DNA from: Datnioides undecimradiatus
Taxonomy: Eukaryota; Chordata; Actinopteri; Lobotiformes; Datnioididae
DNA: 64,000 nt
Direction: 5' to 3'
Assembly: GCA_008933995.1 (NCBI GenBank)
Contig: WARS01000012.1
Coordinates: 5,394,001-5,458,000, forward strand
Position numbers and translations under genes: made by a program. Position 1 is the first letter of the stretch; each line of letters starts with the position of its first letter. A model generated the notes under the pieces. That model made no database searches, had not been told where the DNA came from, and was given only the letters and a program-made list of their open reading frames with translations. Of the stretch, positions 30,857 to 59,546 are shown piece after piece.

Positions 30857-31597
30857 TCAGAGTTTGGTCATGGGTATGTGAAGGCTGTTCCACGGGCCCA
30901 TCCAGAGTTCCTCCTCATCAGACTGCGTTCTGTCACTCGGGCACTCCGATGGCCCCCTCGTGACAAGTCCATCGCTGTCGTCGTTACTTCCGTCTACCTT
31001 CGACTCTCGCTCGCCTTCTTTCAACTCGTCTCTCTCCGCTGTGCTCTGAGGTGGCTCTGTGCTGCCCTGTGCCGCCTTGAGCAGGTTGGACTTGGACGCC
31101 ACACTATCAGTGCCCGTGTTGCTGGTGGATCCTAAGGAAACGCTTGATTGTCGAGTGTTGAACTCGTTCAGCGTTTTATTGTTGTCAGTGTTAGAGAATG
31201 AGGAAGTGGCCGTCGCAGAGGTGGCCATTCCCGAACTTTGGAAAGTGCGCAGTGTGTTACACCCTACGTCTGTTCTGGGGCTGTTCAGGGGTACTCTCTC
31301 CTCCAGCGTGGCGGCCATTTTGTCGAGTTTTTTAAAGTGCTTGGCCAGCCGGGAGCTGAAGACAGGGGAGGGGAGTTTGAGGTTGTTGTTCGTGTTGTGT
31401 GTGTGCGTGGAACCTGTGGCATTGACTGAGCGTCGTGTGCGGATGATGGAGCCATTCTGCGCCACGTAGACGCTGCCGTTAACATTGGCATGGGTGGAGG
31501 ATAAGCGGCTGCGCTCTGGTATGCTGTCCTCACCAGTGGAACTGGTCTCATATTCCCGATCCACCACCAACTTGACGCGACGTTTTCTGCCACCAAC
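30857..31597 (-). CDS. pcdh15: pcdh15 CD3 terminal exon
   Basis: 246 residues plus stop. Begins VGGRKRRVKLVVDREYETSS, then TGEDSIPERSRL, with VYVAQNGSIIRTRR and LAKHFKKLDKMAATLEE, all close to vertebrate CD3. Ends EELWMGPWNSLHIPMTKL; M-T-K-L is a class I PDZ ligand. Acceptor GGTTTCAG; phase 0 from the 35,696 exon. Confidence 0.95.
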   Translation of the reverse strand, partial: VGGRKRRVKLVVDREYETSSTGEDSIPERSRLSSTHANVNGSVYVAQNGSIIRTRRSVNATGSTHTHNTNNNLKLPSPVFSSRLAKHFKKLDKMAATLEERVPLNSPRTDVGCNTLRTFQSSGMATSATATSSFSNTDNNKTLNEFNTRQSSVSLGSTSNTGTDSVASKSNLLKAAQGSTEPPQSTAERDELKEGERESKVDGSNDDSDGLVTRGPSECPSDRTQSDEEELWMGPWNSLHIPMTKL

Positions 31598-32889: not shown

Positions 32890-32945
32890 TAGTGGCAAAG
32901 AATTTAATCTTTGGTTGGGGGGGTGACGAAGGCCTCATCTGCATT

Positions 32946-34619
32946 TCAATCAGCTGACTCATTTTCCAAATCCCCCTCTTCTTCATCCTCGTTTTCATCC
33001 CCACCATGGCCGCTGCTTCTCTCCTCCTCCTCGGTCTCCTCGATGATGGGTGACAAGTCGTCAGAGGTGTTGATCGCACCCGTGCCGGTGCCTGATTGGA
33101 TGTGGCTTGTGGCTCGCCTGCTTGACTGAGACTTTCGTGATCCCACACTTCTCTCCTCCTCCTCTTCCTCTCCCGATTCCTCATCTTCTTCGCTCTCCTC
33201 CTCTATCGTTTCACGTGAAGAGCGGGAGTGTCGAAAAGTTTGAGGCCTAGAGCTACAAACTCTAGAACCTGAATATCTCAAACTCTCTCTGCTGCTGCTT
33301 TCTTCTGTCTCTTTGCTGTTTTCTTGCTGTCTGCTTGTCCTCTGCCTCTTCACGTTGGCACGACTGCTTCTACTTCTACTACTAACACTGCTGCTGCTCA
33401 CCAAACTCTTACTAACACTTCCTCCTGAGTGTGTTCTGCTTCCCTCATCTGATTCCCTCTCAGACTCTGACCCTTCTCCCTCTTCATCTGGGCTGCCACT
33501 CTCTGACTCTCTATCTGAGTCGGGAGTCTCCTCTTCCTTTTCTGTCCCTGAGTCAGACTCGTTTTTTTCTGTCTCTGTATCAGATTCGGTCTTGTCATGC
33601 TCGGCTGTAACAGATGAGGTGGGGCTACTTGCATCAGAGAGACTAAACTCTGATAGAGACTCTTTGCTGGCACCTCCTGTTTCTGAATCACTGTCATGAA
33701 ATCTGTTTTCTCTCTTCCACCACACCTCGGAGGAGCCGTTCTCCTCTCCTAACTGCCTCTCCCACCTCCTCCCACCGGCTCTCTCAGACACTGATGCAGA
33801 AACACTAATATCTCCTACAGAGCCATACATCTTCCTGCTGTTCTCCTCTCCTCTGCCCCAGCTTTTTCCATTGCTCCACTGTTCATCTCCCACCCTGACA
33901 GGTCCCTGGAGTCTTCTGGCGAGGGAGATAAGACTGAGGGCCTCGCTCAGCTTTTGTTTCACTGGTGGGGGTTTGCTGGCTTCAACAGACGTCTGGAAAT
34001 AACTCCCGTCGATGACTATGCTGCCATCCAGGCTGTCGAAGTGGCCAGCGGATGACAAGCCAGGGAGCACTCCCCTATGCTCTGGCCTTACGCCTTCTCC
34101 TCTTCCAATAGCATTTCTCATCCCATTGTTCGTTGCGCCACCTCTGTTACTTCTTCCCTGTGTTTCCATTTCTCCTCTGCCTCCTCTTTCCCTTCCTCGT
34201 TCTGCTGCTTCATCTCTTCCTCCCCCTTTGTTTTCTCTTTTCCCTGTTTCCCCTCTCTCTAATCCCCTTCCCACTCCTTCCACTCTTCTTTCCTCCAGTC
34301 TGTGTCTGCTTCCTTCTGCTCCTTCAACCGGTTTGACTCTGGCTTTGTTCCAGGGCGGGTGGATGGCAGGAGGTTGTCCAGATGTTTTACTCCCAGAGGA
34401 CAGCAGCATGCTGCCTCTCATTATGGCCTTCAGCCTGTTGGCCACACTTGAGCCCCTTGGCTTTGCGTTCATGGTTGTAGCAATGTCAGATGCCTGTTTT
34501 TGGTTGCCTTCTGTTCTTGGGGCTCCTGGGGTCTTTGAGGGCCCATGAGAAGGTGAAGGGCGTGGCTGCAGGTAGGCAGGGCGTGGAGCTAATCTACTTC
34601 CTTGAAACTGTCTCCTCAC
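32946..34619 (-). CDS. pcdh15: pcdh15 Ser/Glu-rich exon in CD2 position (CD2-like tail)
   Basis: A 557-codon open frame in phase 0 with the preceding exon, starting VRRQFQGSRLAPRPAY after acceptor ACAACAG. The first half is basic and Pro/Gly/Ser-rich, the second half has long Ser/Glu/Asp runs (about residues 320-395 and 460-557). It ends DLENESAD, without a PDZ ligand. Its position (between the shared exons and CD3) and S/E composition match mammalian CD2, but I see no clear residue alignment. Other readings: a lineage-specific tail, or a divergent CD2. Confidence is high that it is a coding exon and moderate on identity. Confidence 0.75.
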   Translation of the reverse strand: MRRQFQGSRLAPRPAYLQPRPSPSHGPSKTPGAPRTEGNQKQASDIATTMNAKPRGSSVANRLKAIMRGSMLLSSGSKTSGQPPAIHPPWNKARVKPVEGAEGSRHRLEERRVEGVGRGLERGETGKRENKGGGRDEAAERGRERGGRGEMETQGRSNRGGATNNGMRNAIGRGEGVRPEHRGVLPGLSSAGHFDSLDGSIVIDGSYFQTSVEASKPPPVKQKLSEALSLISLARRLQGPVRVGDEQWSNGKSWGRGEENSRKMYGSVGDISVSASVSERAGGRRWERQLGEENGSSEVWWKRENRFHDSDSETGGASKESLSEFSLSDASSPTSSVTAEHDKTESDTETEKNESDSGTEKEEETPDSDRESESGSPDEEGEGSESERESDEGSRTHSGGSVSKSLVSSSSVSSRSRSSRANVKRQRTSRQQENSKETEESSSRESLRYSGSRVCSSRPQTFRHSRSSRETIEEESEEDEESGEEEEEERSVGSRKSQSSRRATSHIQSGTGTGAINTSDDLSPIIEETEEEERSSGHGGDENEDEEEGDLENESAD

Positions 34620-35695
34620 CTGTTGTCATGTGATGTTAATGCAAAACGAAATAAAGATATTTAGGAAGAGAACAAGTGAGGCAAAAAGAATGTGAGGAGT
34701 ATAAACAGGAGCAGGATTTAACTCTGCACCTCCTGTTCTTGTTTATCTACCAGGAACTTCCAGATTGATGGTGCCTTGAAAAGGTACAAGGCATGAACAT
34801 GTATCGGTATAAAACGTGTAAAACATGTGTCAGTGAGACAATGAAATACAAGACCAGGAGGTGTTGTATGAGAAAAATAGATCTATGAGTATGGAGGCTT
34901 ATCAGACACTAAAGAACTACTTAGATGAAATGAAAAATGTTACATGATAAAGTAAAACATATCTTTTGTTGCCGTAATGGAGATATAAAGAGCAGAGATA
35001 CCACATTCAAGTTATCGACCAGGAAGGTGAGCCAGGTTCAACTGGATTCCTCTGCATTTGTACCCGGACTGTATTGCAGTGTTAGTCTCATTTGAATAAA
35101 TGCGTTTTTTCATGCGAGACCAAAGTTGACATTAACTTTACAGTACATTTTGATGAACACTGGTAGGCTGATTTTGCTCATTTTGGATGGAATCAAAGGT
35201 AAGCTAACTGTCTGATCAATATTTAAGTCTTAAATATAAGAAATCAGCTGCTAGCCTCACACACTGTTTATTGAACAGACATGATCTATTGATCTTCACA
35301 ACTAAACCTTAGCTAAAAAGCAAATTAGTGTGGTTCCCGTCATATTGAACTGTTTCTTTAAAATGATGAACGTTCAGAGTATCTCATAGTCTGTCAGTGA
35401 GATTGTCAGAAAAAACTATATATCCTGAATTTCAGCAAAAGGGTTTAAACAAAGAAAGTCAATTTCATTTGCACCAGCCACAAGAAAACTGTGACCTTAA
35501 AGAACAGTTTTGGTTTTTAAAACTTTTTCTGACTTTTTATTCATCGCTCTCACCTCATTCTGTTTTGTCTGCATTAGAAAATCTATCAAACAAAATCAAT
35601 ACACAAGCCTGTGATCAACAACATTTCCTCTTTACACATCATGGATGCTGGTAATAGTCTGTGTTGGAATATTCAGCAGTTTTTGGTCTGTTTAC

Positions 35696-35825
35696 CTCTC
35701 CGTCAGACTCCTGTGGGCTGTAGTAGTAGCTGCCGTCATCATCGACAACAACTTCTCCATATTCATCGTAGAGGCCGGAGGGTGAAATCAGCTTCCTGCG
35801 ACTGCCGTACTGAGGAAGGTCATAC
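35696..35825 (-). CDS. pcdh15: pcdh15 shared tail exon (PQYGSRRKL)
   Basis: Encodes YDLPQYGSRRKLISPSGLYD and EYGEVVVDDDGSYYYSP, aligned to mammalian YEMPQYGSRRRLL...EYGEVV. Acceptor CTGTCCAG and donor GTAAAC. Phase 2 in, phase 0 out, so it can precede either the 34,619 exon or the CD3 exon, and can be joined straight from the juxtamembrane exon. Confidence 0.95.
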
Positions 35826-40087: not shown

Positions 40088-40161
40088 CCATGGTCATAGT
40101 TGTAATAATCTTGTGTGTAGTAATCCTGACCGGGGTCGATGCCAGATTCCATCGATAACTC
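40088..40161 (-). CDS. pcdh15: pcdh15 shared tail exon (Tyr-rich)
   Basis: Encodes ELSMESGIDPGQDYYTQDYY and NYDH, a tyrosine-rich motif that I recall in vertebrate PCDH15 tails (SGIDPGQ-YY). Acceptor TCTAACAG and donor GTTTGT; phase 0 in, two bases of a Gly codon left at the end. Confidence 0.85.
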
Positions 40162-50132: not shown

Positions 50133-51771
50133 CTAAAGCATTGTGGACTGAGAGGGGAACCGCTTCTCAAGCTCTTCCACGATGGAGTTCATGTTTGGGT
50201 TGGGCTGAATTGGTGGAGGTGGAGCATCCCCTTCTCCAACTGCTCCTTCTCGACCTCCCTCTCCCCCTCCTGCTCCTACTATTCCTCCTGCTGCTGCTAA
50301 TGCATCCAAGGAGTCAAGTGAATCAAGGGAATCCACAGACGCCCGGCTCTTCATGACCTTTTTGAGCGGGATCTGTTTCTGATCTATCTGGCTGAACATG
50401 TTGGCCACTGACTTCTCAATGTCTGCAATATTTTGGATGTTTTTTAAGATTCCTTTCAGCTCTTTTCGGGGAGGGTCAGGCTCCACAGGGAGGGGTGGTG
50501 GTGGAGGCCGGAGGGATACAGGTCGCAGGGATGGAGCCTCTGAGAGTGATGGGAGGACAAAGGTGGATGGACGCAGAACCGATGGTGACAAAGGGGGAGG
50601 AAGAGGTGGAGGAGGAGGTGGAGGAGGTGGAGGAGGAGGAGGAGGAGGAGGAGCCTGTTTTTCTGTTTGGTCCAAATGAGATGAAGTTGGAGCGACGGGA
50701 GGAGGAGATGAAGGGTGTTGTGAAGGAGTAGATAAAGGGGGAGGGGGAGCAGATACAAGAGGTGGAGGTGGAGGAGGTGGGGATGAAGGTGGGGGTGGTG
50801 GTGGAGGAGTTGATGGAGGGTCAGGGATTACCTCTAAATGGACCTGAAGTCTATCTTCTGCACCTTGATTTCCTGTTAAATTTGCCCCAAAGCGTCGCAG
50901 CACAGGAGGAGTTGGCTTGTGACTGGGCGGTGGGGTCCCCCCATCACTCTGTGTGACAATGATACTAGGAGGACCCTCTTTAACCTGAACATTCGAGATA
51001 CTGTGAGTGGGGGTCTGCTTGTGATGCTGAGGAGACTCTGGGAAAACCGATAGTAGGATATCAGGTGACAAAGATCCTCGTGAATCTCTGTTTTGCCTTT
51101 GTCTCATTTCCTGCAGCGCCTGTTGCTCAAACTGTCTGGCTTGTTCTTTGACTGTCAGCTTGGGCTCCAGACTCGGACTTCCCATTAGGTCTGAATCCAA
51201 CCCCCGATCAAATCCTGAATCCAGACCAGCATCTTTACTCTCCTTGAACTCAGCCTTTAAAAGCTCCAGCTCCCACTGCACAGGATCCATAACCACCTGG
51301 CGTCTCAAAGCATCATACATCTCTCTTCGATGTAATCTTGATGGGAGAGTCCAGCTGTGTCCACCCCCAGATCCCCATCCACTGTCACTGCCGCTATACC
51401 CACCAAATCCCATATCTCCACCATGGGAGCTGAGCCTCAGCCAAGCCTCTCGTAGGCCTTTCCTTGAAGGTGAAAAATTTCCAAGAAGGTCTCTTCTCCT
51501 CTGGCTTCTACCAAGTGTCTCTGGGCTACTCAAAGTCCCATCCTCATGGTAGATTGGATTTTTAATAGTCAGAGGGTTTTCATCAGAAAGAAAGGTGATG
51601 TTGGACTCAGACTTGGGAAGGTTGTTGAGCACCCCACCATTAGCGACGCACTGACGATGTGCAGCGATTGCTCGTGTCGCAAAATCTGAGATGAGACGTT
51701 GGCGGTCACTTTCGTCCAGACTGCCACCACTCCCACCACCACCACCACCACCACCACCATGGTTTGACCGG
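50133..51771 (-). CDS. pcdh15: pcdh15 CD1 terminal exon, proline-rich tail
   Basis: A 1,639-nt exon with 545 residues after a junction codon. It starts with a His-Gly run (HGGGGGGGGG), then ITFLSDENPLTIKNPIYHED, aligned to vertebrate [20 protein letters not shown]. Further on are long proline runs (about residues 315-440), then LKGILKNIQNIADIEKSVAN, matching mammalian [20 protein letters not shown]. It ends FPSQSTML, an X-T-X-L class I PDZ ligand like mammalian STSL. Acceptor TGTACCAG. It is a complete alternative tail with its own stop. Confidence 0.95.
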
Positions 51772-58764: not shown

Positions 58765-58983
58765 TGTCTGTAGGTGATAATGACGATCAATATGGCAGGA
58801 ACACAGCAGATAATGATGATAACTGCCAGAGCCAACAGTGCTCCCTCTGTGTAGCCTACAGTCTGCACTGCTTTCTTTACACTGGTCACTACTTCAGGGG
58901 TTCGAATCTCCAGAATCCTTCCACCAGGAGGGAGGAAAGGCTGGGACTCTTTATTGATGTCCAAGAGTTTGCCATCAAGAAAC
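58765..58983 (-). CDS. pcdh15: pcdh15 exon: transmembrane exon
   Basis: Encodes [33 protein letters not shown], and then GYTEG followed by a 23-residue hydrophobic stretch (residues about 47-69 of the exon, [20 protein letters not shown]), the single transmembrane helix, ending TYRQ. Acceptor CTCAAG (no typical long pyrimidine tract) and donor GTAAGT; ends with CA of the Gln codon. Confidence 0.97.
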
Positions 58984-59546
58984 CTTGAGGGGGAGAAACA
59001 ATAATCTAACTGAGACCATGTATCTTTGGCAATAAACAATACACATTAACCTCTATTACTCAGTGCAAATGATGCCAGCATCAAATAAGTGTAAATGTGG
59101 TGGTCAAGGTCAGAAACCACTGCCAACTAGATGTTAAACAGTTATCCAGGCTGCAATTCGGTCACTAAGTCAGCAAGTTTCATGCACACACCCACCCACT
59201 CATTTGTGCTATTATAATTGCAAATCTGTTTAGTTTATTTTCAATTGTCTGTATTTCCTAAATCCTCATTCTAAATGGTGTTCCCAGTCAAAACAAGGAC
59301 TGATAAAACTTAGAAGGAACTTTTCTTATTGTTTAAGTGAACTGCCAGAAAGAAGAAGATTGACTTCTGCAAAGTACCTGAAAACCTGTGTGAATTGCAG
59401 CGCTCCCAAAAACTAATTGAGTCCAATTAATTTCAAGATGACTTAATTGCGATGTAATTTAGGTTAGGCCCTGTCCCGTCTTATGATCTAAAGCTTTTGG
59501 AGAGCTGCCATTTTACTTTACTTGGATTTGTTGGCTAAGTTCTTAC

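Follow-up and report, generated by a model that had tools for sequence, protein, structure and literature searches.

A predicted third alternative tail, of the CD2 kind, in fish protocadherin-15

The fish pcdh15 gene described here, which encodes the hearing and vision protein protocadherin-15, contains a real-looking, predicted exon for a third alternative cytoplasmic tail in addition to those for CD1 and CD3. The window analysed is a 64,000-nucleotide stretch (C465:5394001-5458000) of the Datnioides undecimradiatus genome (581 Mb in 497 contigs), and the gene lies on its minus strand; positions given without a contig name are those of the window. The exon (32946..34619) comprises 1674 bases, read from 34619 to 32946 as 557 sense codons followed by TGA. 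Judged from the genomic sequence, it is a real coding-type exon in the slot that CD2 occupies in mammals, and it is homologous to an exon at the same place in a second pcdh15 copy of this genome. The exon is likely to be protein-coding and to serve pcdh15 as an alternative last exon, in position the fish counterpart of mammalian exon 38 (CD2), and it probably predates the split between the two copies; it is very probably the CD2 of fish.

The membrane-proximal and transmembrane exon of the gene (58767..58985) matches Protocadherin-15 among PDB sequences (6c14_A, E 6e-31), which identifies the gene as pcdh15. Further along the minus strand is the CD1 terminal exon (50133..51752, the 5′ end being approximate), with the C-terminus SQSTML where mouse CD1 has SQSTSL. 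It is followed by a short cytoplasmic exon (40088..40161; ELSMESGIDPGQDYYTQDYYNYDH), the 3′ end of which was placed by reading frame and the peptide of which has a near-identical counterpart in the second copy. The next exon (35696..35825) takes the place of mouse exon 37, which is common to CD2 and CD3 (PMC7532178). The CD3 terminal exon (30857..31597) has the C-terminus MGPWNSLHIPMTKL, its last 14 residues being those of the mouse CD3 peptide (PMC7532178), as is also the case in the second copy. In the mouse, exons 35, 38 and 39 correspond in order to CD1, CD2 and CD3 (PMC12370195), and the window exon, lying after the shared exon and before the CD3 exon, has the position of mouse CD2.

The shared exon ends in GAG/gtaaac and joins the cag/GTG start of the CD2-slot exon (acceptor AG at 34621-34620) in phase 0, such that the reading frame continues across the junction. 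From stop to stop, the frame extends only two codons beyond the exon start, to 34625; it opens 6 bases upstream and is closed by a TGA at 7-9 bases upstream, so that the open stretch effectively begins at the acceptor AG. The exon also has a stop codon of its own and, 37 nt beyond it, the candidate poly(A) signal ATTAAA (32903..32908), which may mark a 3′ end. The original prediction of a long phase-0 open exon between the shared tail exon and CD3 is thereby borne out, with 557 codons and 0 stops in its own frame where about 19-21 would be expected.

That expectation comes from Markov sequences modelled on the exon, which contain a mean of 21.4, 19.1 and 19.0 stops at orders 1, 2 and 3, respectively. 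The other two sense-strand frames of the exon itself hold 18 and 39 stops. Purine content inside the stretch reaches 0.54-0.73 in 200-base windows, and a purine-rich stretch has a lower stop frequency, which would favor a chance open frame in an intron without any exon. Yet none of the 2000 simulations at each of the three orders was free of stops, the longest open run in any of three frames reached 315 codons, and a 639-codon frame fills the same slot in the second copy. Chance does not account for frames of this length, 557 codons in one copy and 639 in the other, at corresponding places in two genes that have diverged, and this explanation is given almost no credence. Codon use points in the same direction: the 96 serines are encoded by 47 TCN and 49 AGY codons, two unconnected families, which indicates that the residue rather than a purine-rich repeat has been kept. 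TCN codons number 17 and 13 in the two other frames. A repeat scan returned three rows, the longest of 47 bases, and no large tandem array under the exon.

The second copy was located with the CD3 exon, which detects a further locus in the genome at C337:7314660-7314052 (57% identity) and, in addition, gives one weak match (E 2.03). The 50 kb surrounding this second CD3 contain, all on one strand, a transmembrane exon, a CD1-like frame ending in STVF, two short shared exons, a 639-codon frame and CD3, and the tail exons have the same order and strand as in the window copy. Its CD2-slot exon occupies the minus strand at C337:7317416-7315500 (L008:3500-5416); it is Ser/Glu-rich, ends in GNSTAF and opens at the acceptor tttag/GGC, the TAG of which is in frame. 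The preceding shared exon, from about C337:7317697 to 7317583, ends in GAG/gtatta in phase with the 639-codon frame, and an AATAAA lies 32 nt past the stop, where the window copy has its ATTAAA at 37 nt. In both copies the three tails account for the longest frames of the coding strand: 604 (CD1), 559 (CD2 slot) and 271 (CD3) amino acids in the window, the next being 162, and 603, 639 and 257 amino acids in the second copy, the next being 177. When this second gene serves as the comparison, the frame proves to be preserved: slot, strand and phase all agree, and 639 codons are open. The intron between the shared exon and the CD2-slot exon spans 166 bases in the second copy and 1076 in the window.

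A separate single-exon gene or a retrocopy residing within the intron is very improbable as the source of the window frame. The frame does contain internal Met codons, as such a gene would require, but in each of the two copies it starts from an AG in matching phase, and the exon has no match in Pfam (E up to 10) or among PDB sequences (E up to 1). A search of the genome contigs (E up to 10) returned, besides the exon itself, two weak matches (E 0.86 and 2.45), so that the candidates scored include no convincing further copy, and the CD2-slot exon of the second pcdh15 gene was not among them. The match at E 0.86, to residues 437-497, lies on contig C24 (L003:1501-1686) within an open frame of 495 codons, probably that of another low-complexity charged protein.

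Sequence similarity between the two CD2-slot exons is limited to a small part of their length. BLASTP aligns one block, residues 57-101 of the window exon (34317..34451) with residues 43-90 of the second, with identical residues in 18 of the 49 columns (32.3 bits, E 5e-5). None of 2000 local shuffles reaches this score, the best attaining 25.4 bits. The same block is retained with SEG filtering (E 2e-4) and is not significant under comp_based_stats 1 (E 0.34 and 5.1). The two exons thus share slot, strand and phase together with a significant alignment, which is one 45-residue block and depends on the composition statistics used. The N-terminal thirds of the exons give a local score of 66, reached by 5/1000 and 4/1000 shuffles. 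A possible second block, around residues 188-238, is weaker (score 35, reached by 22/1000 and 11/1000 shuffles); its residues 220-238 correspond to 33906..33962. Over the C-terminal 80 residues, alignment is no better than that of shuffled sequences (118/1000 and 83/1000). Heavy masking of low complexity removes the aligning block and leaves a best score that 109/2000 and 126/2000 shuffles reach; since this masked score of 35 is below the 39 obtained against the CD1 of the second copy, the heavy-mask comparison is uninformative.

The remaining tails are better conserved between the copies. Identity is 57-58% for CD3, the last 21 residues being identical, and 47% for CD1, for which the row of the second copy extends a little way upstream of the exon. 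In a global alignment the CD2-slot exons reach 30%, a figure inflated by low complexity; they are the least alike of the three and therefore the fastest-changing tail.

The acidic, Ser/Glu-rich composition ascribed to the exon in the original prediction holds for only part of it. The window tail is acidic from approximately residue 300, but its first 180 or so residues are Gly/Arg-rich and carry a net basic charge (+18). A similar division is seen in the second copy, in which the first 180 residues have a net charge of +14 and acidity begins near residue 180. An AlphaFold model of residues 1-250 of the 557, computed from the single sequence, has a mean pLDDT of 52.5 and predicts, at low confidence, helices of at least four residues only at 58-69 and 220-238, in addition to four short strands. 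Both low-confidence helices lie inside the blocks that align with the second copy. Minimal CK2-type sites were considered as a functional hint and dropped, as an excess is present only in the second copy (its count is reached by 2/1000 shuffles) and is absent from the window exon, the count of which is reached by 648/1000.

The copies also differ at the C-terminus. The CD2-slot exon ends in NESAD in the window copy and in NSTAF in the second copy, the latter of which we take to be a class I PDZ ligand. The CD1 tails of this fish end in QSTML (window) and QSTVF (second copy). The corresponding mouse peptides end in QSTSL (CD1), YNTAL (CD2, peptide GANSEQYNTAL) and HIPMTKL (CD3) (PMC7532178), so that each mouse tail carries a PDZ ligand. 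The window exon accordingly has ESAD where the second copy has STAF and mouse CD2 has NTAL, and an end that lacks a PDZ ligand, as had been noted beforehand, is what the translated frame contains. Its absence is probably a derived condition, because the second copy ends in STAF; on the simplest reading, the common precursor of the two copies had a ligand, which the window copy then lost.

Loss of the ligand might also signal that the window exon is a decaying remnant, unused although still free of stops, and that the exon of the second copy is the working CD2. The modest acceptor, the strong divergence and the lack of excess CK2-type sites in the window copy fit this scenario. The acceptor has 8 pyrimidines among the 16 positions from -20 to -5, compared with 15/16 at the shared exon, 9/16 and 10/16 at other acceptors scored in the window and 9/16 at the CD2-slot exon of the second copy; such an acceptor fits regulated or minor use and also counts against use. 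The CD3 acceptor of the second copy is left out of this comparison, its row having been read from three bases inside the exon. The scenario is nonetheless unlikely, given zero stops and no break in frame over 557 codons despite the deep divergence of the copies, where random sequence matched in composition contains about 19 stops.

Similar comparisons can be extended to the mammalian gene. Like PCDH15 CD2, the window exon follows the exon that CD2 shares with CD3, precedes that of CD3 and is a predicted last exon with its own stop codon, and the STAF of the second copy is comparable to the NTAL of mouse. It differs in size, since mouse CD2 has 284 residues (PMC4119359) and the fish exons encode 557 and 639, as well as in the missing ligand of the window copy. 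Of the mouse CD2 sequence, the last 11 residues entered the comparison. Because it lacks a PDZ ligand and is twice as long as mouse CD2, the window copy is not filed as a typical CD2; it is a variant of the CD2 kind. CD3 shares its upstream exon and splice phase with the CD2-slot exon, but CD3 is conserved between the copies and the CD2-slot exon hardly aligns.

Ser/Glu-rich tails arise easily, which counts in favor of another acidic tail having filled the slot independently; the exon would then be a coding last exon in both copies without being homologous to mammalian CD2. The twofold difference in length is in keeping with independent filling, as is the lack of an alignment with the main part of mammalian CD2, the comparison having covered the last 11 mouse residues. 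Against it, slot, shared exon and order are all as in mouse, and the second copy ends, like mouse CD2, in T-A-hydrophobic. Independent filling is accordingly regarded as improbable.

The expectation that fish pcdh15 had been described with CD1 and CD3 tails only is confirmed for zebrafish. CD1 and CD3 are the tails named for zebrafish Pcdh15a in PMC5462536 and for zebrafish in PMC12428828, PMC6380590 states that zebrafish lacks CD2, and the term CD2 does not occur in PMC8669488 (main text), which deals with zebrafish pcdh15b. Among the matches listed, titles and abstract openings describe no CD2 tail in fish, in a literature that leaves subscription journals mostly uncovered. Automatic annotations of other fish genomes may already contain the exon. 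The genome described here resembles zebrafish Pcdh15a in belonging to the same gene family and in having CD1 and CD3 exons in both copies, and differs in that both copies possess a CD2-slot exon whereas zebrafish is stated to have no CD2 (PMC6380590). In mouse and human, CD2 is the tail needed for mature hearing (PMC4119359). The stated absence of CD2 from zebrafish has been one ground for a possible tip-link-independent role of Tmie (PMC6380590); if a fish has a CD2-type exon in both copies, this ground is not extendable to fish in general.

The arrangement of the locus suggests how the exon could be used. CD2 and CD3 would compete for a single 5′ splice site, the donor at 35696/35695 of the shared exon (35825-35696). 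Splicing of that exon to 34619 would commit the transcript to CD2, and transcription would presumably end at the ATTAAA just past the stop. The resulting tail is predicted to be long and disordered, basic near the membrane with one or two short helices and Ser/Glu-rich and acidic thereafter. The exon would have been present before the two pcdh15 copies separated, and its frame is open in both. The C-terminal peptides of all three mouse tails bind whirlin (PMC7532178), and for the CD2 of mouse an interaction with TMIE has been reported (PMC6380590). When the window copy selects CD2, PDZ scaffolds such as whirlin would be unable to hold the receptor by its C-terminus, although the membrane-proximal part of the tail may still touch the transduction machinery. 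The window tail would thus lose the whirlin-type contact and may keep that with TMIE. More tentatively, and with somewhat more doubt than confidence, CD2 may be an ancient tail of vertebrate protocadherin-15, rather than a mammalian one, that this fish has kept in both copies, the window tail working without a ligand, such that splicing switches tip-link or photoreceptor forms between scaffold-anchored (CD1, CD3) and scaffold-free (CD2) tails. If fish having a CD2-type exon in both copies exist, comparing the copy that has kept the PDZ ligand with the one that lacks it offers a natural experiment on the purpose of the ligand.

Bacterial/archaeal and viral contigs scanned with the CD3 alignment for stray fish DNA gave 79 and 107 pattern matches, respectively, none of which was confirmed. 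At 34614-34622, the start of the window exon reads cag/GTGAGG, placing an acceptor directly before a sequence that resembles a 5′ splice site. A recursive-splice reading of this element was rejected because the exon start is not common to both copies, the exon of the second copy beginning with GGCCGA. In addition, the window CD1 exon (50133-51752) encodes a proline run of approximately 16 residues; in the second copy this run is reduced in length and interrupted.
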